38,348 bases of DNA from a virus. How positions within the stretch are numbered: position 1 is the stretch's first letter; each line of letters begins with the position of its first letter. The stretch is from positions 1 through 38,348 of IMG/VR virus record IMGVR_UViG_3300043409_000195; one strand, written 5' to 3'. Positions 16,376 to 38,348 of this stretch are shown piece after piece. A model generated the notes under the pieces. That model was not told where the DNA came from. It did no database searches and worked only from the letters and a program-made list of their open reading frames with translations. Made by a program: the position numbers and the translations under genes.

Positions 16376-18730
16376 ATGGCAATACCAAACAATAACTACA
16401 CTGTAATGGAAGATGGCAGTATTGCCTATTCCTCTGATCCAGTTAATCAATCAGCATCAAACACCACATCTAACATGGTAAGGGACTATCAGGGTAAGGA
16501 ATACGATCCTGCTGTGATTCTGGCTCTTTCCAAACAAATTGCTGCTGCCGTTGACCCTAAAGCAATTAAAGGTGGTGTATTTACTACTAAGGGCGAGAGC
16601 GTTGGATTTAACTACGATGAAGCCACTAGGTTGCTTGGTCGTGCGCCTAATTCTGCTGAACAAGTCTTTTTAGACATGGCTCGTCACCTTGCAAAAGAAG
16701 GTGTAACAGACCTAAAGAATGCTGATTTAACAGAAACAAATCGTAGGTTTGGCTCTACCTTTACAGGTGGTGGTGGTACGATTTATGAGATTAAAAAGGA
16801 TGCTTCTGGTAATCCAGTAATCTCTACTTGGAGCAAAGAAACTAGCGACAAAGGTGCAATTCTTGGTGCTTTAGCTATTGCAGGTCTTGCTTTTGGCGTA
16901 CCTGCTTTGTTTGGTGAGACTTTAGCAGGGACTGCGGGACTTACTGCATCTGAATTAGCAACTGCTGATATGGCTCTTGGTGGTCTTGGCGGTACTGCGG
17001 GTGCTACTGCTTTGGCTGAGTCTGCGGCTCTTGGTGGAGCAGGTGCTAGTGCTTTAGGCGCTCAGAATACTTTTGAATTAGCTAATGCAGGTGCTTCTGC
17101 TTTAACAGACACTACAGCAGGTCTTTTAACTGGCGGTGCTGAAACTGCGGGTGCAACTACTTTAGGTGGAACTACTGGAGCTTCTACTCTTGGCGGTGGA
17201 ACAGGATTACTAACTGGTGGCGCAGAAACAGCAGTTACTGGCATGGGAACTGGCACTGGTTTAACAGGAACTTCAAGTGGTTTAGGATTAAATGCGGCTG
17301 GCACTGCGGGACTTGGTACTGAGGGTTTAGGTGCAGGATTAACAACTGGTACTGGTTTAACAGGAACTGGTGTTTTGACAGGCTCTGAACTTGGTACAGG
17401 ATTGTTAACTGGTGGTGCTGGTACGGCAGGTTTAACAGGCACTGGAGTATTGACAGGATCTACTCTTGGTACAGGTTTACTTGGCACAACAGGTACTGGT
17501 GCTTTGACGGGAACTGGCGTATTGACAGGCTCTACTCTTGGAACAGAAATATTAGGTACAGGCGCAGGAACTGCCGCTACTACTGGCGGTGTAACTGGCT
17601 TAACAAATACTGCCAATGTTGGAACAGGTGCTGTAACTACTGGTGTTACAGGTGGAACTACAGGAGTTACTGGAGGCACTACAGGCGGGACAACTGGTGG
17701 TACTACTGGTGGCACTACAGGGGTTACTGGAGCAACTGGATTAACTGGTTTGACTGCTCAACAGATTGCAGGATTGTTATCAGGAACTTTAACTACTGCT
17801 GGTGGTTTATTGCAACAACAGACTTCTAGAGAAGCCGCACAAGCTGCACAAGCACGAATTGATGCTGAGACAGAAGCTGCTAAACAAGCGGCTCAATTCC
17901 GTCCTGTTGGAACTACTACTCGGTTTGGCACTTCACAGTTCACCTATGATCCTATAACTGGTCAGATGGTTAGCTCTGGTTATCAGTTAACTCCAGAAGC
18001 AAAAGCTCAACAAGATCGCTTCATGGCTTTGTCAAATGCAGGTTTGACCCAAGCTGAACAAGCACAAGCACAATTTGCTCCTTTGCAACAAGGCGCTCAG
18101 AATTTGTTTAGCCTTGGCAATCAATACTTGGCTCAGAGTCCAGAGGATGTTGCTCAAAGATACATCTCTCAACAGATGAACTTATTAGCACCTAGCCGTG
18201 AACTTGATTTGGCTAACTTGCAAAACAGACTGTATCAACAAGGTCGCTCTGGTTTAGCGGTTTCTCAAGGTGGTAATTTAGGTGCTACAACTCCTGAGCT
18301 ACAGGCTTTGTATAACGCTCGGGCGCAACAAGATGCTCAGTTGGCGGCTCAAGCTCAACAAGCTGGTCAACAGCAAGTTGCATTTGGTGCGGGATTGTTG
18401 GGTACTGGCGCACAGACTATGGGTCAGTATTATGGTGGTCAGCAAGCGGCTTATGCTCCTTACACTACGGCAATGGGTCAAGTGCAGAACTTAGAGAATC
18501 AAGCTCAACAAGCCTACACAATGAGTCAAGCACTTGCTCAACAACAAGCAATGGCAGGAGCAAGAAGTGGAGAGTTAGGTTTACGAGGTGCAGGTCAAAG
18601 TGTGGCATTGGCTACTGGTAATGCTGCTACAACTAATCCTTACTCAACAGTTTTAAGTGGCTTGGGTGATCCAAATTCGTTGATTAGTCAAGGTATTACA
18701 AATGCCGTTAGAAGCATTTGGAGCAGTTAA
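16376..18730 (+). CDS. Probable internal virion protein with Gly/Thr repeats
   Basis: The 784-residue product has three parts: an N-terminal domain (1-165), an Ala/Gly/Thr-rich low-complexity region (about 165-460, including a hydrophobic stretch near 162-175, ILGALAIAGLAFGVPALF), and a Gln/Ala-rich helical C-terminus (460-784, with LNLLAPSRELDLANLQNRLYQQGR in shortened form as SRELDLANLQNRL). The C-terminal SRELDLxxLQNRLYQQGRSG motif is common in phage internal core proteins. Position before two more large alanine- or glutamine-rich genes supports an ejection-protein role. Shine-Dalgarno AAGGAA precedes the ATG. Confidence 0.65.
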   Translation: MAIPNNNYTVMEDGSIAYSSDPVNQSASNTTSNMVRDYQGKEYDPAVILALSKQIAAAVDPKAIKGGVFTTKGESVGFNYDEATRLLGRAPNSAEQVFLDMARHLAKEGVTDLKNADLTETNRRFGSTFTGGGGTIYEIKKDASGNPVISTWSKETSDKGAILGALAIAGLAFGVPALFGETLAGTAGLTASELATADMALGGLGGTAGATALAESAALGGAGASALGAQNTFELANAGASALTDTTAGLLTGGAETAGATTLGGTTGASTLGGGTGLLTGGAETAVTGMGTGTGLTGTSSGLGLNAAGTAGLGTEGLGAGLTTGTGLTGTGVLTGSELGTGLLTGGAGTAGLTGTGVLTGSTLGTGLLGTTGTGALTGTGVLTGSTLGTEILGTGAGTAATTGGVTGLTNTANVGTGAVTTGVTGGTTGVTGGTTGGTTGGTTGGTTGVTGATGLTGLTAQQIAGLLSGTLTTAGGLLQQQTSREAAQAAQARIDAETEAAKQAAQFRPVGTTTRFGTSQFTYDPITGQMVSSGYQLTPEAKAQQDRFMALSNAGLTQAEQAQAQFAPLQQGAQNLFSLGNQYLAQSPEDVAQRYISQQMNLLAPSRELDLANLQNRLYQQGRSGLAVSQGGNLGATTPELQALYNARAQQDAQLAAQAQQAGQQQVAFGAGLLGTGAQTMGQYYGGQQAAYAPYTTAMGQVQNLENQAQQAYTMSQALAQQQAMAGARSGELGLRGAGQSVALATGNAATTNPYSTVLSGLGDPNSLISQGITNAVRSIWSS
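17220..17740 (+). repeat. In-frame tandem repeats in the internal virion gene
   Basis: The stretch encodes imperfect repeats of about 15-30 residues built on LTGTGVLTGSTLGTGLL, followed by a short array of GGTT units (TGGTTGGTTGGTTGG in protein). At DNA level the units share words such as ACTGGTGTTTTGACAGG and TCTTGGTACAGG. Such arrays readily expand or contract by slippage or recombination. The opposite strand of this stretch is open too, but only because of the repeat composition. Confidence 0.8.
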
Positions 18731-18741
18731 GGAGAAACAAA

Positions 18742-20175
18742 ATGGCAGATATTATTCCTAGCTTATTCGGGTTAACTCCTGAGATGTATGGTCAACAACA
18801 GCAGATGAGTGCTATGAATAGAGGCATTCAATTAGCAGGAATGTCTCCTGAGGCCAGAGGTGCGGCTATGACCTATGCGGGTGCTTCAGGTCTTGGTCGT
18901 GCTGTAGGCGGTATATTGGGTGCTGAAGACCCACAATTGAAGTTGATTAGTATTCGCAATACTATTGCCCAACAGATTGACCAAACCAATCCTGAGTCGA
19001 TTTTGCAAGGTGCTCAAATGTTGGCTCAAGCTGGCGACCAACAAGGTGCTATGCAATTGGCTCAATTTGCTCGTCAAGCACAGAGTGAGATGGCTCAAAC
19101 ACAACAGCGTTTGTCAGCAAGTAGAGCATCTGAAGCTCAGGCTACTCGTGAGCGAATGACTCCACAACAACAAAATGCAATGGCTTATGCCGCAAGTGTT
19201 GCTCAACCAGGCACTCCACAGTTTAATTCTGTTTATCAAAAGACTTTGCAAGATTTGATTAACAAAGAAAAGCCTGATCTAACATCTACTGAGCAGAAAA
19301 ATGCTAAAGCAATAGCTTTGACTGCTGGCCCCGAAGGTTCTGCTCCGTACATTGAGAAATTTAACACAGAGATGCTTCGCTTAACAACTAAGGCTGAAGG
19401 TCGTCCTGTGATTAAAGAAGTTGGTGTCGCTGCCAATACTCGTGAGCCTGTTTACACATATCAAGAAGGCAATAATCCTCCTCAACAAATTATCTATAGA
19501 AATGTTGATGGAAAACAACAGATGATTCCATATACGGGCGGTGTTGATAGAACAACTGCAACATCAAAAACAGAAGTTAAATTGCCTGAAGGCGAGTCAG
19601 AGTTTCTTAAAGAAATGGGTAAGTTGGATGCTAAAAAAGTTTCCGATGCTATGGTCACTAGAGAAACTGCCTCTTCTACAATTAAGTCTCTAAATAAACT
19701 TGCTTCATTGCCAGATAATGAGTTGATTACAGGACAGTTTGCTACAGGTCGTGTGGGTGTCGCTAACCTAATTCAAACTCTTGGTTTGGCTTCTGCTTCA
19801 GATGCAAAAAAAGTAGCTGGAAGCCAAGAATATCAAAAAGTTGCAGGAGATGTTATCTTGCAAACTCTTGGTGGCAAGTTGGGTTCTGGCTTCTCGAATG
19901 CTGATCGTGAGTTCATTCAAGGACTTATTCCTCAACTTGAGACAAATCCTAATGCTCGTAGACAACTTATCTCATTCATGCAACAAAAGAATCAAGATAT
20001 TGTTGCTGAGGCAATTCGGACTGAAAATTATGCTCGGAAAAACAAAGGTCTATCAGGTTTTGAGCCTAACATTCCAATGTCGGTTGAGCCTGCAAAACCA
20101 AGACCTTATTCTGGCTTGAGTGATGCTGAACTTAATGCGAAAATTCGAGCCGCACAAGCTCAACAACCACGATAA
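18742..20175 (+). CDS. Probable internal virion protein (477 aa)
   Basis: The N-terminal part (FGLTPEMYGQQQQMSAMNRG, then GAAMTYAGASGLGRAVGGILG) has a short amphipathic segment, followed by long Gln/Ala-rich helices with repeated QGAQMLAQAGDQQGAMQLAQ-like units. This composition is typical of podovirus internal core proteins that are ejected into the cell and help form the DNA channel. No lytic transglycosylase motif is visible. I chose ATG at 18742, which follows AAGGAG, over an upstream codon inside the preceding gene. Confidence 0.65.
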   Translation: MADIIPSLFGLTPEMYGQQQQMSAMNRGIQLAGMSPEARGAAMTYAGASGLGRAVGGILGAEDPQLKLISIRNTIAQQIDQTNPESILQGAQMLAQAGDQQGAMQLAQFARQAQSEMAQTQQRLSASRASEAQATRERMTPQQQNAMAYAASVAQPGTPQFNSVYQKTLQDLINKEKPDLTSTEQKNAKAIALTAGPEGSAPYIEKFNTEMLRLTTKAEGRPVIKEVGVAANTREPVYTYQEGNNPPQQIIYRNVDGKQQMIPYTGGVDRTTATSKTEVKLPEGESEFLKEMGKLDAKKVSDAMVTRETASSTIKSLNKLASLPDNELITGQFATGRVGVANLIQTLGLASASDAKKVAGSQEYQKVAGDVILQTLGGKLGSGFSNADREFIQGLIPQLETNPNARRQLISFMQQKNQDIVAEAIRTENYARKNKGLSGFEPNIPMSVEPAKPRPYSGLSDAELNAKIRAAQAQQPR

Positions 20176-20185
20176 GAGGTAAAGC

Positions 20186-22315
20186 ATGGCTGATTCATTA
20201 GCAGAACTAATTGCTGAAAGAGAAAGACGCTCTGGTCGTGTTACTGGTGGTGTTCGTAGTGTTCTTGAGCAACCTGAAGAAACAACTAATCTAGAAGAGA
20301 TCAAAAGGGCTGTTACATCTCTTTTAAAAGGCTCAACTGTTAGCGTTATTGGCGCAGTAGGTGGTTGGGGTAATGTTTATGATGCAATTAGAGAAAGTAA
20401 AGACCCTAATCCTTTATCTAGTCGTGGAATAGTTAACGCTCTTACTAAAGTTGGTGGCCCTGACTTAATGAAAATTCAGGGATACAAAGGTTTATACGAT
20501 CTTGGTCAGGCGGGAGCTTTTCCAGCGGTGATGTCGGCAGTAGCGCCAGGCAGTAGTCTGTTTAGATTATCCACTCCTGCTAGAACTGCGGGTGCTGAAT
20601 TTACTACCGCAGGTACGTTGGGTCTATTGTCTCAACAAGTTGCCCCTGAAAGCCCTATGGCTCAGTTAACCATGCAAACCTTGCCTTACTTGGTTGTGGG
20701 TGGTGTTCGTGGTTATAGTGCCAAAGGTCAACAAGACAAAATCAACGAATACAAGAAATTGCTTCCTGAGGGCGATAAGAACATCTTTGATGAGTTTATG
20801 TTGCGTGGTCAGGCATCATCTGACCCTGTTATTGCCGCTGACATTGCTAGACTTTCTAGGTCACCAAAGTACTTAGAACTTGTTACTGCTTTAAATGAAG
20901 GTGCTGCCAAGAAAGCCGTATTAGGTATTGAGCCTAAAGCCGCACCTTTGACACTAGAGCAGGCTAAAACTGGTGTTATTCAAGGTATTCAAAACAAACT
21001 TGAAGCCATTAGAGACAGTAAATCTACTGGTTTATTTGAGAAAGCTAAAGGTTATGGTGCAAACCTTCCTTTGGTTGACCCATCAACTACATTGGCAAAC
21101 ATTGATGGATTGATTGCCAGATATGCTGCACAAACAACTCCAAATGCAGATCGTGCCGTTCAGGTATTGCGAAACATTAGAGAGCGTTTAGTCACAGAAG
21201 TTCCTGTTAATCCAGAGCAAGTTGCCCTTAGGGGTGCTACTGGCCCTATAGAGATGACAAACAAGCGGACTGTTGAGCAAGTTCAGGGCGTTTTGTCTGA
21301 GTTTGGCAAGAAAGCATCTGCTGGCGACAACTTAATTAAAGATTTGTCTATCTCTGATGAGCGAATTATCTCTAGTGCTATTTTTGGTGGCATGAAAGAG
21401 GATTTGAGAACTGCCATCAGAGCATCGTCAGGAAACGATAGGGCGGCTTTAAACCTACTATCTGAAGCTCGTAATCGTGTTGAGAAGTCAAGCACTGCTT
21501 ATCGTGAAGCAATCTCTCAGGGTATGCCAGCTTATTTGCAAAACAAAACCCTTGCAGAAGTTTCTCCTGAAGAACTTTTGGTTACCTACAAAGCATTGAC
21601 TCCTAATCAAAGGGCATCAATGCGTTCTTGGATTGAGAATACCGACTCTGCTGCTTTATCTGTTCTTGATAAACAAGTGTTTGATGACTTTGTAAGCAAG
21701 GCAAGAATGCCTAATGCTACAGGAGTAGAAACTGTTAATTTAGAACAAATGGCTAAAAACTGGCGTGGTTTAAACGCTGTGGACAAGGATGCTTTGGCTA
21801 CTGCTTTGGGGACTAATGCAAATGAATTTGGCAGTCGCATGAAAGACGCTGAGTTGATGACCAGAAAGATGAGTGTTTCACAACCAGCGAATCCTCCGAT
21901 TATTGGTGGCGAGACTGTTCGTGAAGCATCTGCTGTTTTGGGTGCTGCGGGTGGTTATGCAACATCTAAGGTTGGTCAACTTGGTTTGGATATTGTCAAT
22001 TCTTTCAGCAAGGGTGGCTTGAACGAAGATCAGTTGATGAAGGCTTTGCTTACTCCTGAAGGCGCTCAATTCTTGAAGACTGCGGCTTTAAGCCCAAGGT
22101 CTGCAAATGTGTTGTCAGATTTGACGAAAATGGAGAACTCAAATCCTGTTGCACGATGGATGATTGGAACTACTGCTCGACTTGGGCCACGAATGGCTGC
22201 TGCAGAACAACCTACTGTTCAGACGCAAGAACAAGCGACTGTTGGCGAAGATGAGTTGGCTGCTTTGCTACAAGAACAGCAATTGCGTCAACAACAACCT
22301 ATGCCTCAAGAATAA
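20186..22315 (+). CDS. Probable internal virion protein (709 aa)
   Basis: The protein is largely alpha-helical and Ala-rich, with a hydrophobic patch around residues 50-65 (STVSVIGAVGGWGNVYDAI) and a Gln-rich tail (LLQEQQLRQQQPMPQE). It is third in a row of three large genes between tail and lysis modules, the slot of ejection proteins in many podoviruses. It lacks a visible enzymatic domain. Its stop codon overlaps the start of the next tiny gene, and GAGGT precedes its own start. Confidence 0.65.
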   Translation: MADSLAELIAERERRSGRVTGGVRSVLEQPEETTNLEEIKRAVTSLLKGSTVSVIGAVGGWGNVYDAIRESKDPNPLSSRGIVNALTKVGGPDLMKIQGYKGLYDLGQAGAFPAVMSAVAPGSSLFRLSTPARTAGAEFTTAGTLGLLSQQVAPESPMAQLTMQTLPYLVVGGVRGYSAKGQQDKINEYKKLLPEGDKNIFDEFMLRGQASSDPVIAADIARLSRSPKYLELVTALNEGAAKKAVLGIEPKAAPLTLEQAKTGVIQGIQNKLEAIRDSKSTGLFEKAKGYGANLPLVDPSTTLANIDGLIARYAAQTTPNADRAVQVLRNIRERLVTEVPVNPEQVALRGATGPIEMTNKRTVEQVQGVLSEFGKKASAGDNLIKDLSISDERIISSAIFGGMKEDLRTAIRASSGNDRAALNLLSEARNRVEKSSTAYREAISQGMPAYLQNKTLAEVSPEELLVTYKALTPNQRASMRSWIENTDSAALSVLDKQVFDDFVSKARMPNATGVETVNLEQMAKNWRGLNAVDKDALATALGTNANEFGSRMKDAELMTRKMSVSQPANPPIIGGETVREASAVLGAAGGYATSKVGQLGLDIVNSFSKGGLNEDQLMKALLTPEGAQFLKTAALSPRSANVLSDLTKMENSNPVARWMIGTTARLGPRMAAAEQPTVQTQEQATVGEDELAALLQEQQLRQQQPMPQE

Positions 22316-28294: not shown

Positions 28295-28511
28295 ATTCAC
28301 TCCTGTTAGTTTATTAAAATGTCCGTTTTTGCAATTCACTGTTTAATGCTTTAACACACTACGTTGAGCCAGCGCTTCATTGCAACTTTTTAGCACGATG
28401 GACTTCGCACAGAGAGTTGCTCAACACCTTTAATGTGCCACACAGATTCCCGAATTTACATAGGGGTTTTCCCTAATTTACGCAACTTTTTTATCATGCT
28501 AGGCTACTCGT
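28295..28511. promoter_or_regulatory. Divergent control region between leftward and rightward early operons
   Basis: This gap separates two divergent operons and must hold promoters for both, although I see no convincing -35/-10 pair. It holds the operator-like palindrome at 28459-28476 and an inverted pair GTTGAGC (28363-28369) and GCTCAAC (28419-28425). A strong T-run (28489-28493) lies just upstream of the rightward gene. Nothing here looks coding. Confidence 0.6.
28459..28476. promoter_or_regulatory. Operator-like palindrome, member 1
   Basis: The plus strand shows CATAGGGGTTTTCCCTAA, with arms TAGGG (28461-28465) and CCCTA (28471-28475). Read on the minus strand it is TTAGGGAAAACCCCTA, matching the palindromes at 35832 and 36232 in core and spacing. 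It lies about 35 bases before the start of the gene at 28512, a typical repressor or activator position. Confidence 0.6.
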
Positions 28512-31256: not shown

Positions 31257-31681
31257 CTTTTATTGTCACATTTATGGTGGAGGGAACACCAGTACCCAAG
31301 GGTAGACCAAGGTTTGCTAGAAGGGGCAAATTCGTATCAACTTACAGTCCTAAGACTACTGTTGACTATGAAACTAAGGTCAGCGAGGCGGCACAAGTGG
31401 CAATGGGCAGTTCAGAACCCCTACAAACCCCTGTGGGAGCTTACATCTACATCACCTTACCGATTCCCGCCAGTTACAGTAAAAAGAGAACCCAAGCCTG
31501 TTTATCAGGAGAGGAACGCCCAACAAAGAAAAGTGACATAGATAATTATTGCAAAGCGGTATTCGATGGGATGAACGGGATTGTTTTCCTAGATGACAGC
31601 CAAGTAGTCTCACTTCATTCAACGAAGGTTTACGGGACTGTTGGCATGGTTGAAGTAATGGTGAAAGAAGAGCTTATCTAA
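31253..31681 (+). CDS. rusA: RusA-family Holliday junction resolvase
   Basis: The 142-residue enzyme carries the RusA signature: VPKGRPRFAR near the start, and then KSDIDNYCKAVFDGMNGIVF with LDDSQVV. Asp95, Asp97, Lys101 and Asp114/115 correspond to the catalytic residues of E. coli RusA. It cuts four-way junctions made during ERF-mediated recombination and during resolution of branched concatemers before packaging. Length is normal for the family. Confidence 0.9.
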   Translation: MTFIVTFMVEGTPVPKGRPRFARRGKFVSTYSPKTTVDYETKVSEAAQVAMGSSEPLQTPVGAYIYITLPIPASYSKKRTQACLSGEERPTKKSDIDNYCKAVFDGMNGIVFLDDSQVVSLHSTKVYGTVGMVEVMVKEELI

Positions 31682-31747
31682 GGGTAAATCCCAATAGAAA
31701 AAGAAACAAACAAGAGTAAATTAAAGGTTTTAACAAGGGTGAATATT

Positions 31748-31993: not shown

Positions 31994-32451
31994 GAAAGCA
32001 GACCAAGCGCAAGGTTTGGGCATTGATTGACCCACTTACTCACGCAATAGTAGGTGCGTCAATCACTCAAAGGGACAAGCTAGACAAGCTCAGAACCCTA
32101 GAATATTCAGCCTTAGAAGCAATAACCAAGGGAAAAGGGACAATCCACGATTGGAGAGTCCTTGTTGACGTTTTAAATCTAAGCGAAATGATGGCTAAGA
32201 ACGGAATTGGAAAAGATGAGGTTATGCCTGTATGCCAAAAAGCCCAAGATGCTTTGCATAAGGCAGCTATTCGATACCAAAATACGCTTCAAATCGGTTT
32301 ATCAGGCGAAGGAATCAAGGCAATTCGAGAGCTTTTAGAGTTTGCAGATTTACAACAATCAAGCATTTCAAGATCAGAATTCGAGAAATATATTAAGAAA
32401 ACCAAAGATTATATTAAGTCAAATAATGATTTAGTAGTGGAGATAATATGA
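31990..32451 (+). CDS. Conserved phage protein of unknown function (153 aa)
   Basis: The product MRKQTKRKVWALIDPLTHAI is followed by LDKLRTLEYSALEAITKGKG and DWRVLVDVLNLSEMMAKNGI. This set of motifs (ALxxPxxHAxxGA; WxxLxxxLNLxExMA) is shared by a family seen in many phages of beta-proteobacteria. It is helical, without catalytic signature. ATGA overlaps join it to both neighbours. Confidence 0.7.
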   Translation: MRKQTKRKVWALIDPLTHAIVGASITQRDKLDKLRTLEYSALEAITKGKGTIHDWRVLVDVLNLSEMMAKNGIGKDEVMPVCQKAQDALHKAAIRYQNTLQIGLSGEGIKAIRELLEFADLQQSSISRSEFEKYIKKTKDYIKSNNDLVVEII

Positions 32452-32732
32452 GTAATATTAAGTTAGATGAATTAGAAAAGATGGCAAAGGAAACTGCCGC
32501 ATTTGGAGTGCATCCAAGCGGTGAGTTCATTTACTCTTTTTACACTGAGCAATTACAAGCCTTTGCCAAATTGGTAGAAGACAGCATTTATGCTAAACAA
32601 CTAGAACTGCCAGAGCCAAGGCTAACGGGTAAGTTTTCAATCACTATGGGCAAATTCAAATGTACGGGTTGCACAGGTCTTTGGGAAAATAGAGAAGATG
32701 CAAAACACCACTCATGTAGGGATTACCAATGA
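32448..32732 (+). CDS. Hypothetical protein with zinc-finger-like end (94 aa)
   Basis: The first 55 residues form a helix pair (KLDELEKMAKETAAFGVHPS, EQLQAFAKLVEDSIYAKQLE). The C-terminus FKCTGCTGLWENREDAKHHS is a CxxC...H-type finger. It is part of the chain of overlapping early genes directly before the alpha-CTD-like protein. Function unknown. Confidence 0.65.
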   Translation: MSNIKLDELEKMAKETAAFGVHPSGEFIYSFYTEQLQAFAKLVEDSIYAKQLELPEPRLTGKFSITMGKFKCTGCTGLWENREDAKHHSCRDYQ

Positions 32733-33079
32733 CAAGAGAGGAACTACTAGACCAGATCGCAATCGAAGTACTTAAGAACCTACCGCACAACTTCGCCCGT
32801 GATGCCTACAACATCGCAGAGGGTGTGCTTGAACGTAGAGACGCAATACTTCACAAATGGGCTTTAACTGAGGCTATCGTTTTTGATGGATTAGAGAAAC
32901 TCAATTTAACTGTTCGATCTGAGCGTTGTTTAAAAGCTGATGAAGTATATACATTAACTCAATTATTAAACTGCACTAAAGACAGATTATTAAAAACACC
33001 TAATATGGGTAGAAAAAGTGTTAATGAGATAATCGAGAAACTAGCCGAGCATGGTTATAAACTAAAAGGCGAATTATGA
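32729..33079 (+). CDS. Stand-alone RNA polymerase alpha-CTD-like protein (116 aa)
   Basis: Residues 52-113 match the C-terminal domain of bacterial RNA polymerase alpha: LEKLNLTVRSERCLKAD and LLKTPNMGRKSVNEIIEKLA. By alignment from memory with E. coli RpoA, Arg63, Cys67, Lys69, Gly94, Lys96, Ser97 and Glu100 correspond to Arg265, Cys269, Lys271, Gly296, Lys298, Ser299 and Glu302, the DNA- and activator-binding surface; Asn268 is replaced by Arg66. The first 50 residues are a separate helical part, not the alpha assembly domain. It could bind UP-element DNA or sigma, or compete with the host alpha-CTD. It is mid-operon, with ATGA overlaps. Confidence 0.85.
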   Translation: MTREELLDQIAIEVLKNLPHNFARDAYNIAEGVLERRDAILHKWALTEAIVFDGLEKLNLTVRSERCLKADEVYTLTQLLNCTKDRLLKTPNMGRKSVNEIIEKLAEHGYKLKGEL

Positions 33080-33402
33080 GTGATAATCCACATAAGGCGG
33101 TGCAATTCCTGATTGACACTGCACCCCTTTACAGTAAGGCTAAGGCTAGTCGGATGTTTTTAGAGGAGTTTCGTAAGAGTCGCAAAGCCCAGTTAATGAG
33201 CCAGGCAGGGACTGAGGTACTCGGGAAACAAGAAACTTACGCCTACGCTCACCCTGATTACATTCAGATATTGGAAGGCATCAGGGAAGCGGTCGAATTA
33301 GAAGAGCGTTATCGCTGGCTTATGACCGCAGCACAAACCCGCATCGAGGTATATAGAACCGACGCCTACTCAGCTAGGCATGAAATAAAAAACACCCAAT
33401 AA
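33076..33402 (+). CDS. Conserved phage protein of unknown function (108 aa)
   Basis: The product contains KAKASRMFLEEFRKSRKAQL, GKQETYAYAHPDYIQILEG and RYRWLMTAAQTRIEVYRT. I recognise the pattern as a common family in phages with ERF or RusA genes; it is often placed beside recombination or HNH genes. It is helical and basic, probably acting on DNA together with its neighbours. Function not established. Confidence 0.7.
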   Translation: MSDNPHKAVQFLIDTAPLYSKAKASRMFLEEFRKSRKAQLMSQAGTEVLGKQETYAYAHPDYIQILEGIREAVELEERYRWLMTAAQTRIEVYRTDAYSARHEIKNTQ

Positions 33403-33704
33403 TGCAAAGCAAAAACAAGGCTAAACCCACCGCAAGCGAGAGATTGCATATCGCTAGAATCAAGGCCATGTCGTGCATTATTTGCGACAACCCAGCCCCA
33501 AGCGAATGTCATGAGATAACCCAAGGCCAATGGTTTACATCAATGCCACTTTGTGCAGATTGTCATCGAGGGCCGATCAATGGAATACATGGACAGCGCA
33601 GATTGTGGAATGTCTACAAAATGGACGAATTGTCAGCCCTAAATGAAACTATACGCAGATTGTGCGAAGATATACCCCTAGAAGGCAATAAAAGCCCCTT
33701 TTAA
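33402..33704 (+). CDS. Ref/HNH-like nuclease (100 aa)
   Basis: The product includes ARIKAMSCIICDNPAPSECH and MPLCADCHRGPINGIHGQRR. This matches the zinc-binding HNH fold of the P1 Ref-type RecA-dependent nuclease and related phage proteins with a Cys-Cys-His-His centre. Such enzymes cut DNA at displacement loops or promote recombination. It is the last gene of the rightward early operon and shares a base with the previous stop (TAATG). The exact activity is uncertain. Confidence 0.75.
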   Translation: MQSKNKAKPTASERLHIARIKAMSCIICDNPAPSECHEITQGQWFTSMPLCADCHRGPINGIHGQRRLWNVYKMDELSALNETIRRLCEDIPLEGNKSPF

Positions 33705-35758: not shown

Positions 35759-35887
35759 GTTATTTACACCTATTTAACCCCTAGTTCCGCTAGGTCGGTA
35801 TTAGTAGAGTAGCAACAAAAAAAGAAAAAACTATTAGGACAAACCCTAATAAAGTACAATTATTTCAAATTATTTTATGGGGATGAC
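35759..35887. promoter_or_regulatory. Divergent control region with operator-like palindrome, member 2
   Basis: TATTAGG (35832-35838) and CCTAATA (35845-35851) are perfect arms separated by ACAAAC. A -10-like TACAAT follows at 35855-35860, so a bound protein would cover the -35 region of the rightward promoter. A hairpin CCTAG-TTCCG-CTAGG lies at 35780-35794 in the leftward leader. No leftward promoter is obvious. Confidence 0.65.
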
Positions 35888-36145: not shown

Positions 36146-36404
36146 CACAATGCTAAACCTAGAATTCAAGTACATCAAATTAGGTGCTTCACCCTCTTTC
36201 ACACTTAACATAACAACTTAACATAACGTAGTCAGGGTAAACCCTGATCTGTATAGATAGACAGTACTGTAAGGATAGACAGTAGGGTAAACGAGTAGGT
36301 AGAAACCCTGATATGGGGGGGGAGGGGGTGAGTGGTGTGTGTAGATATTTGTGGAGCATCCCACCCTCAGAAAAAGCTAAATTGACCATTCCAAGGAGGA
36401 GAAA
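36146..36404. promoter_or_regulatory. Repeat-rich noncoding block upstream of terS
   Basis: The block contains a tandem pair of ACTTAACATAAC (36203-36214, 36216-36227), a perfect palindrome TCAGGGTAAACCCTGA (36232-36247), two GATAGACAGTA repeats (36256-36266, 36274-36284) 18 bases apart that flank palindrome ACAGTACTGT (36261-36270), further half sites AGGGTAAAC (36284-36292) and AAACCCTGAT (36303-36312), and a G-run G8-A-G5 at 36315-36328. No gene longer than 23 codons is present. It could combine an operator, an origin with iterons, or the packaging recognition site for small terminase. Confidence 0.65.
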
Positions 36405-36770: not shown

Positions 36771-37269
36771 AGCAGCAGAGCGTGCCAAGGCAAAAGAGCT
36801 AGGTGATCGTTTTTACTTTACTGGCAAACCCTGTAAGCATGGGCATATTTCAAAGCGTTATACAGATAAAGGCACTTGTTGCGAGTGCATGACTCTTGAT
36901 TTTGAGGCTAAAAAAGAATCAAGATTAAGCCAAATGAAGTCAAACTACGAAGCAAAGAAGTCAATCTATGCTCAGAGGATGGTTTCTTGGAGAGCAAACA
37001 ATAAGCACAAACAAGCCGTGTATTCCTCTAAGAAGCGGTCTGAAATCATGTTGCGAACACCCAAGTGGCTAGATTCAGATGCTTTTGCCAAGATGGAAGA
37101 GTACTACTACACCGCCAATATGCTTGGGATGCACACTGGTGAGCAATACCATGTTGACCATATAGTTCCGCTAAGAGGCAAGTTGGTAAGTGGTTTAAAT
37201 GTTCCTTGGAACTTACAAATCCTTACAAAGACAGACAACCTAAGAAAGAAAAACAAGTTCTATGGCTGA
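36763..37269 (+). CDS. HNH endonuclease next to terminase (complete copy)
   Basis: The 168-residue protein has an N-terminal zinc-binding part (GKPCKHGHISKRYTDKGTCC followed by ECM) and a C-terminal HNH core YHVDHIVPLRGKLVSGLNVP. It lies between terS and terL, with an 8-base overlap on each side. HNH proteins at this position may help terminase cut or may be homing elements. The copy at the start of the window is nearly identical in this gene, although terL diverges further on. Confidence 0.9.
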   Translation: MSRAAERAKAKELGDRFYFTGKPCKHGHISKRYTDKGTCCECMTLDFEAKKESRLSQMKSNYEAKKSIYAQRMVSWRANNKHKQAVYSSKKRSEIMLRTPKWLDSDAFAKMEEYYYTANMLGMHTGEQYHVDHIVPLRGKLVSGLNVPWNLQILTKTDNLRKKNKFYG

Positions 37270-38348
37270 TCTTAATTTCCAACTATTGCCGTGGCAGCAG
37301 ATTGTTTTCAAAGACCCCGCCCGATTCAAAGTGGTTGCCGCAGGTCGTAGGTGTGGAAAGTCTCGATTAGCCGCCACAACTTTGTTAATCGAAGGATTGC
37401 GTTGCCCTCCTGGTTCGGCTGTACTGTATGTTAGCCCTACTATGGGACAGTCGAGGCAAATCGTCTGGGACTTGCTGCTAGACCTTGGTAGAGAGGTTAT
37501 TCAGTCTTCCCACGTAAACAATCTAGACATTACCCTGATAAACGGGGCTAGGATATACGTTCGCGGAGCAGATCGGCCTGATACGCTCCGTGGTGTCAGT
37601 CTGACCTATGCCGTTCTCGATGAGGTTGCTGACATCAAACCAGAGGCATGGGAACAGGTCATCAGGGCTAGTTTGTCTGATAAACGGGGTAGAGCACTCT
37701 TTATTGGTACTCCAAAGGGCAGAAACTGGTTCTACGATACCTTCAAGTTGGGAGAGAGTGAAGATGATCCTGATTGGAAGTCTTGGCACTTTACCACTGC
37801 TGATAACCCCTTGATTGACGCAAAAGAGATTGAATCTGCCAAAAAGACTCTAAGTACTTTTGCTTTCAAGCAAGAATACATGGCTTCCTTTACCAACGCT
37901 GGTTCTGACATCTTCAAGGAAGAATGGATCAAATACGGGGTAAAACCTGAACATGGAAGCTATTTCATTGCTGTTGACCTAGCAGGATTCGAGGAAGTTG
38001 CCAAACAAGCGGCTAATGCTAAGAAGCGTCTGGATGAGTCTGCTATCTCAATCGTTAAGGTCACAGACGATGGGAAGTGGTTTGTTGAGAAGATTGAACA
38101 TGGTCGCTGGGACATCCGTGAGACCGCCTCCAAGATTCTGATTGCCATTAGGGACTACCGCCCTTTATCCGTAGGGATAGAGAGGGGGGCACTCAAGAAC
38201 GCTGTTTTGCCCTACTTGTCAGACTTGATGCGAAAGAACAACACCTATGCTCATATCGTGGATTTGACTCATGGGAATAGAAAAAAAGCGGACAGAATCA
38301 TCTGGGCTTTACAAGGTAGGTTCGAGCATGGCAGAATTGTGTTAAATT
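37056..38348 (+). repeat. Diverged terminal direct repeat, right copy
   Basis: This is the right-hand counterpart of the repeat at 1-1293. It holds the HNH 3' end and the first 1087 bases of terL. As the copies differ, the ends cannot simply be an exact wrap of one molecule. Confidence 0.9.
37262..38348 (+). CDS. terL: Terminase large subunit (second copy, 3' end outside window)
   Basis: The first 362 codons of terL are present, colinear with 207-1293. The ATPase motifs GRRCGKSR and YAVLDE and the nuclease segment IAVDLAG are intact. Relative to the first copy I count about eight replacements (for example N82S, Q187A, D191E, F206Y, Y235F) against roughly 125 base changes, nearly all silent. 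This is a genuine functional allele from a related phage or strain, not an exact duplicate of the assembly end. Confidence 0.95.
   Translation, partial: MADLNFQLLPWQQIVFKDPARFKVVAAGRRCGKSRLAATTLLIEGLRCPPGSAVLYVSPTMGQSRQIVWDLLLDLGREVIQSSHVNNLDITLINGARIYVRGADRPDTLRGVSLTYAVLDEVADIKPEAWEQVIRASLSDKRGRALFIGTPKGRNWFYDTFKLGESEDDPDWKSWHFTTADNPLIDAKEIESAKKTLSTFAFKQEYMASFTNAGSDIFKEEWIKYGVKPEHGSYFIAVDLAGFEEVAKQAANAKKRLDESAISIVKVTDDGKWFVEKIEHGRWDIRETASKILIAIRDYRPLSVGIERGALKNAVLPYLSDLMRKNNTYAHIVDLTHGNRKKADRIIWALQGRFEHGRIVLN

Follow-up and report, generated by a model that had tools for sequence, protein, structure and literature searches.

A freshwater phage carries its own copy of the C-terminal domain of the RNA polymerase alpha subunit (alpha-CTD): the ORF at 32729..33079 (plus strand) of the window, i.e., the whole 38,348-nucleotide stretch of DNA that was analysed, is a genuine gene for a stand-alone alpha-CTD homologue. 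Its ATG start overlaps the stop codon of the upstream gene (ATGA), and residues 54–107 of the 116-aa product match PF03118 (RNA_pol_A_CTD, Pfam) with 66.5 bits and an E-value of 1.7e-18, above the curated gathering threshold of 23.8 bits. A phmmer search of PDB gave a best match at E 3.4e-12 (residues 48–112), RNA polymerase alpha subunits accounting for nearly all rows and every top one, and the local alignment to a betaproteobacterial alpha-CTD scored 153 versus a maximum of 58 among 5000 shuffles of the same composition. The protein has no family in PHROGs, and the best RpoA equivalog reaches 61.3 bits against a cut-off of 302, in the CTD part only. A full-length RpoA has about 330 aa and an N-terminal assembly/dimerisation domain (alpha-NTD); the phage product has neither that domain nor that length and falls outside RpoA proper. 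The sequence-only reading had already proposed a stand-alone relative of the RpoA alpha-CTD, and HMM, predicted-structure and comparative evidence all bear this out. Other helix-hairpin-helix proteins, which it had named as the possible source of a mistaken identity, turned out to be poorer matches, both in sequence (HHH_5, 19.3 bits, under the cut-off of 27) and in fold (HhH domains of Dmc1, Z ~9–10 vs 11–13 for the best alpha-CTDs).

The predicted structure divides the protein into two modules. AlphaFold, run with a 25-sequence alignment, returned a model of the full protein (pLDDT 88.5) consisting of an N-terminal helical hairpin (residues 1–52; 32729..32884, plus strand) with helices at residues 3–17 and 23–51/53, followed by the alpha-CTD (residues 54–116; 32888..33076, plus strand), whose identity rests on HMM, superposition and residue table together. 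Residues 52–114 of the model superpose on the E. coli alpha-CTD (8y5l_A2) with Z 13.0 and an rmsd of 1.1 Å over 63 residues, and the N-terminal part modelled separately folds into the same hairpin (pLDDT 87). Comparison of this hairpin with viral models gave no match with E < 0.1, although a two-helix hairpin is too simple a fold for such a search to mean much. Profile alignment with hhalign did connect it to small phage proteins of the MTLRDYFAAKAMQ type (probability 95%, E 2.8e-8), which have the form MTLRDYFAAKAMQG..AYxxADAMLxAR and are found, lacking any CTD, at other places in the same loci. Thus, the earlier description of an unrelated helical segment in place of the alpha-NTD holds as far as the alpha-NTD is concerned, but the segment does have relatives of its own. 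One locus (L059) even encodes a canonical MTLRDYFAAKAMQ-type protein fused straight to an alpha-CTD.

Most family members share the hairpin, while one sub-branch has an unrelated N-terminus. Searches of IMG/VR recovered 23 related loci with the single sequence and 40 with a profile, and five further loci of the N-terminally different class bring the family to approximately 45 viral loci; PF03118 is matched by all 25 aligned members. In the close group, pairwise counts gave dN/dS values of 0.08 for the N-terminal part and 0.13 for the CTD, with 0.18 and 0.10, respectively, in a second group, i.e., around 0.1 for the family, and since all values lie between 0.08 and 0.18 both halves of the protein are under purifying selection. 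Eight loci carry the same CTD on the unrelated N-terminus (MTKEIYLKQYQEARGTV...). Six of these were included in an alpha-CTD tree, built on only 63 columns and with many open forks, in which they group within the main phage clade (support 96/93), so that the CTD is the transferable functional part. Judged by these sequence comparisons, the alpha-CTD behaves as a mobile, exchangeable module. Another locus, L029, harbors two tandem alpha-CTD copies, one of them strongly diverged; this paralogue (L029:3405-3791, 128 aa) has changed the equivalents of K271, K298, S299 and E302.

In the same 63-column tree the main phage clade adjoins proteobacterial RpoA, and by sequence the phage CTD either derives from proteobacterial RpoA or has a common ancestor with it. 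The top-scoring bacterial matches are betaproteobacterial; a betaproteobacterial host is only suggested by this, because the search pattern itself favoured such sequences. Several matches in phage collections, from Salmonella, Listeria, Acinetobacter and faecal 'phage' records, were full-length or apparent RpoA genes of bacteria and were set aside as probable host sequence. When the profile was run against 151 genomes of the bacterial family around a freshwater Limnohabitans, 138 genomes had one match and 13 had none; all but one of the 138 matches lay in frames of RpoA size (~330–380 aa), the exception being a frame of 173 aa (G087). Likewise, the 22 inspected out of 80 matches on bacterial genome contigs were all RpoA-sized. 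No stand-alone alpha-CTD copy was recognised in the 151 genomes, and a prophage or chromosomal origin was rejected in view of RpoA-sized matches that, bar the one short frame, never exceeded one per genome. As the bacterial matches are nearly all RpoA-sized, the gene is essentially confined to phages among the genomes sampled.

What sets the phage domain apart from its bacterial counterparts is the distribution of changes over its surface. In the E. coli alpha-CTD, the 265 set of residues contacts UP-element DNA (N268 being one of the DNA-contact residues), whereas positions 258–261 face sigma70 and 285–288 face CAP. In E. coli numbering (residue number in the window protein plus 202), the window protein is identical at R265, C269, K271, N294, G296, K298, S299 and E302, and its only difference within the 265 determinant is N268, replaced by arginine (R66); the residue table thereby confirms, position by position, the seven retained residues and the one substitution reported from sequence inspection (N294 was not among them). 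The DNA-contact residues are equally stable across the family (R265 24/25, C269 25/25, K271 23/25, N294 25/25, G296 25/25, K298 24/25, S299 23/25, E302 24/25), while position 268 is occupied by R in 12, by H in nine and by N in four of the 25 members, and K or Q in several members with the swapped N-terminus. C269 is changed in three proteins of this swapped class (L141, L144 and L145), the first of which has also changed K271. The protein-contact surfaces present a different picture: the window protein has D259 replaced by K, E261 by N, E286 by K and E288 by R. Only 4/25 members retain E261, position 259 is K in 16/25 and E288 has become R in 21/25, whereas positions 259, 261 and 288 are acidic in 85/85 bacterial sequences compared, a contrast that holds against betaproteobacteria only, since the comparison set is nearly all betaproteobacterial. 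The family CTDs carry a net charge of +1 to +3, versus -1 for a host CTD segment that differs slightly in length. The E. coli-type 261 and 287 determinants are thus absent, which bears on RpoA-like function and not on domain membership. The simplest reading of these substitutions is that DNA binding would be conserved and the usual protein contacts would not. The mode of DNA binding may nonetheless differ from that of the host alpha-CTD, as N268 is replaced and the paralogue in L029 changes K271, K298 and E302.

The genomic setting was examined in the entire window, whose ends are colinear: positions 1–1293 and 37056–38348 align over 1293 bp without gaps at 90% identity. The record seems to be one turn of a circularly permuted genome of ~37,055 bp in which two strain variants are joined, and given the overlapping ends the genome looks complete. 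End repeats as divergent as these (90%) would be missed by a search for identical ends. The late genes start with the terminase (37262/207), and next come the structural, lysis, reverse and replication blocks. Within the forward replication-side operon, the alpha-CTD gene is found close to the 3' end, after the genes for the replication initiator, a methyltransferase and RusA, and it is probably expressed together with the replication genes given this position; the terminase gene is located ~4.2 kb beyond it. The ORFs scanned contain no recognised RNA polymerase, sigma factor or antiterminator. Three large ORFs (16376–18730, 18718–20175 and 20186–22315, encoding 784, 485 and 709 aa) have no Pfam match and are probably virion proteins. 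The sequence-only reading had stated that the phage has no RNA polymerase of its own and must commandeer host transcription; the apparently complete genome and the lack of any recognised polymerase support this, and we regard it as likely, short of proof because of the three large ORFs that match no Pfam family.

The gene directly upstream (32448..32732, plus strand) has no Pfam family above cut-off, and its product carries at its C-terminus a putative zinc finger of the form CxxC..H..C (ELPEPRLTGKFSITMGKFKCTGCTGLWENREDAKHHSC). Of the 34 loci with the MTREELLD-type N-terminus, 19 have a putative zinc-finger gene in this position; in the other 15 it was not seen. On the downstream side, the alpha-CTD gene is followed by a gene of cluster C7 (33076..33402, plus strand; no family above cut-off) that is its neighbour in most close relatives, and then by the final gene of the operon, which encodes a Cys/His-rich protein (33402..33704, plus strand; phrog_1588, E 2.4e-14). 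Among phage lineages the gene neighbourhood of the alpha-CTD differs. The small genes of this region look modular, being put together from N- and C-terminal cassettes: the putative zinc-finger C-terminus GKFKCTGCTG...HHSCKDYQ is found on various FAKLVAEHERE-type N-termini, and the ...WVGLTDEEI...AIEAKLKEKNT proteins show a similar pattern.

Taken together, we tentatively propose, as a possibility that stops a little short of being probable, that the protein is a small DNA-binding transcription modulator that would occupy UP-like DNA and compete with the host alpha-CTD. In this proposal a phage helical hairpin module fused to an alpha-CTD forms a modulator whose 265 determinant would bind the A/T-rich minor groove at UP-like sites while unattached to RNA polymerase, and, being free of the polymerase, it would compete with the host alpha-CTD at UP-element and activator-dependent promoters of host or phage. 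The N-terminal module could dimerise or bring in a phage partner, for which the product of the upstream zinc-finger gene is a candidate. In this way the phage would probably be able to grip A/T-rich promoter DNA during infection. The sequence-only reading had suggested three possible roles for a free alpha-CTD, namely redirecting transcription of the host, anti-activation at UP elements and the tethering of a further phage factor. A role as a substitute polymerase part is unlikely, and the pattern of substitutions favours DNA occupancy and competition over a simple activating replacement CTD, as the DNA-contact surface is kept while the sigma- and CAP-contact surfaces are changed. For the family as a whole we would go further only with some reserve: it is possible that phages took the DNA-reading domain of their hosts as a free, swappable module, placed it on phage N-termini and rewired its sigma and activator contacts, thereby reprogramming UP-element-dependent transcription in the infected cell, with the upstream zinc-finger protein as a frequent partner.

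The strongest competitor is that the protein switches phage transcription on rather than blocking that of the host, i.e., that it is an activator of middle or late genes in which the N-terminal module (with the zinc-finger neighbour) contacts either the host polymerase or a factor of the phage, the CTD serving as the anchor at phage promoters. In lambdoid phages the late-gene regulator Q is located near the end of the replication operon, and the alpha-CTD gene, close to the end of its own replication operon and ~4.2 kb before the terminase, takes the corresponding place. The ORFs scanned contain no other recognised late regulator, the putative zinc-finger gene lies immediately upstream in 19/34 loci, and the P2 protein Ogr, which binds the alpha subunit and activates late genes (cited in PMC7552054), is a published parallel. 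However, exactly those surfaces through which a host alpha-CTD faces sigma70 and CAP are changed in the phage protein, the presumed partner was not seen in 15/34 loci and the surroundings of the gene vary among phage lineages, so that we regard an activator as rather unlikely. Less likely again is a general DNA-binding or replication/recombination accessory that uses its helix-hairpin-helix-like CTD as a mere grip on DNA and has no role in transcription. Such a function would suit an operon shared with the replication initiator, RusA resolvase and methyltransferase, as well as the plain annotation 'DNA binding protein' of relatives in Microbacterium phages, but the sequence matches alpha-CTD specifically rather than generic HHH families, and the very residues known for UP-element binding are retained. 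Improbable, finally, is a decoy that absorbs factors of the host or of rival phages (activators, ADP-ribosyltransferases, alpha-cleaving systems) and so protects or starves the polymerase: the alpha-CTD is a known phage target (T4 Alt/ModA, PMC2988021; LUZ19 Rac, PMC7552054) and R265 is retained in 24/25 members, but a decoy should keep its protein-contact surfaces, and it is positions 259–261 and 286–288 that changed while the DNA-contact surface stayed.

As for DNA sites, a promoter-associated box, AGGGTAAACCCTRAT (phage-associated box AGGGNAAACCCTRAT), occurs at 17 sites in the window with up to three mismatches, versus 5.6 expected. The four sites with at most two mismatches (28460–28474 on the minus strand, 31681–31695, 35836–35850 and 36234–36248) are all intergenic, the one at 31681 starting with the final base of a stop codon, and intergenic DNA makes up 6% of the genome. 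In the early promoter region of relatives, AGGGNAAACCCTRAT immediately precedes a -35-like AGACA. We nevertheless do not assign AGGGTAAACCCTRAT to the alpha-CTD protein as its target, because the presence of the box does not track the alpha-CTD gene across phages, several other alpha-CTD phages having no copy anywhere in their records. A generic sigma70 promoter scan did no better than chance (25 vs 26.2). The 259-bp intergenic region at 36146–36404, before the endonuclease VII-like and terminase genes, contains a tandem 18-bp repeat (CTGTATAGATAGACAGTA / CTGTAAGGATAGACAGTA), the AGGG box and a long G tract, and might serve in packaging or as an origin.

Named phage alpha-CTD proteins already exist in databases, and the window protein is a further member of this kind. 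Several UniProt entries from uncultured Caudovirales (A0A6J5MNY7, A0A6J5L490 and others) are called 'RNA polymerase, alpha subunit, C-terminal', as are similar proteins of Rhodococcus phage Finch and Mycobacterium phage Mithril, although the actinophage proteins differ in length (149–240 aa). Like the window protein, the bearers of this name are small and come without an alpha-NTD-sized partner, the name being given by homology only; A0A6J5MNY7 (128 aa) aligns with the window protein over its full length at 32% identity. Other phage proteins carry a C-terminal alpha-CTD on different N-terminal parts, e.g., the 'RNA polymerase subunit alpha' of Bacillus phage Goe8 (QDP42789.1; PF03118 78.1 bits) and the 'DNA binding protein' of Microbacterium phages Mazun (PF03118 50.5 bits), Morrill, Atraxi and TrippleS, of which Mazun has changed C269, K271 and K298. 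The Goe8 and Microbacterium phage proteins fall outside the main phage clade, in a position that is unsure owing to long branches. We found no functional study of a phage-encoded alpha-CTD in the literature covered, which includes few subscription journals. Compared with the alpha-CTDs of betaproteobacterial and other RpoA (PF03118; PDB 1lb2, 3n4m and 3n97), the phage domain has the same fold (Z 12–13) and the 265 determinant, with ~45–51% identity to the betaproteobacterial CTDs; it differs from RpoA in having neither alpha-NTD nor linker, in the changed 261 and 287 determinants, in the replacement of N268 by R and in its fusion to a phage helical module. If our interpretation is true, the phage domain would be a naturally occurring separation-of-function variant of a domain that has been studied in depth. 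The family is easy to test in vitro, since assays and mutants exist for the E. coli alpha-CTD. Other phages act on the domain or subunit of the host: Alt and ModA of T4 modify Arg265 of the alpha-CTD (PMC2988021), Rac of LUZ19 causes removal of the alpha-CTD (PMC7552054), and Ogr of P2 binds the alpha subunit. The phage described here, by contrast, carries its own copy, and an alpha-CTD that has kept its DNA contacts but altered its protein contacts would, if confirmed, represent a tactic unlike modifying, cleaving or binding that of the host.
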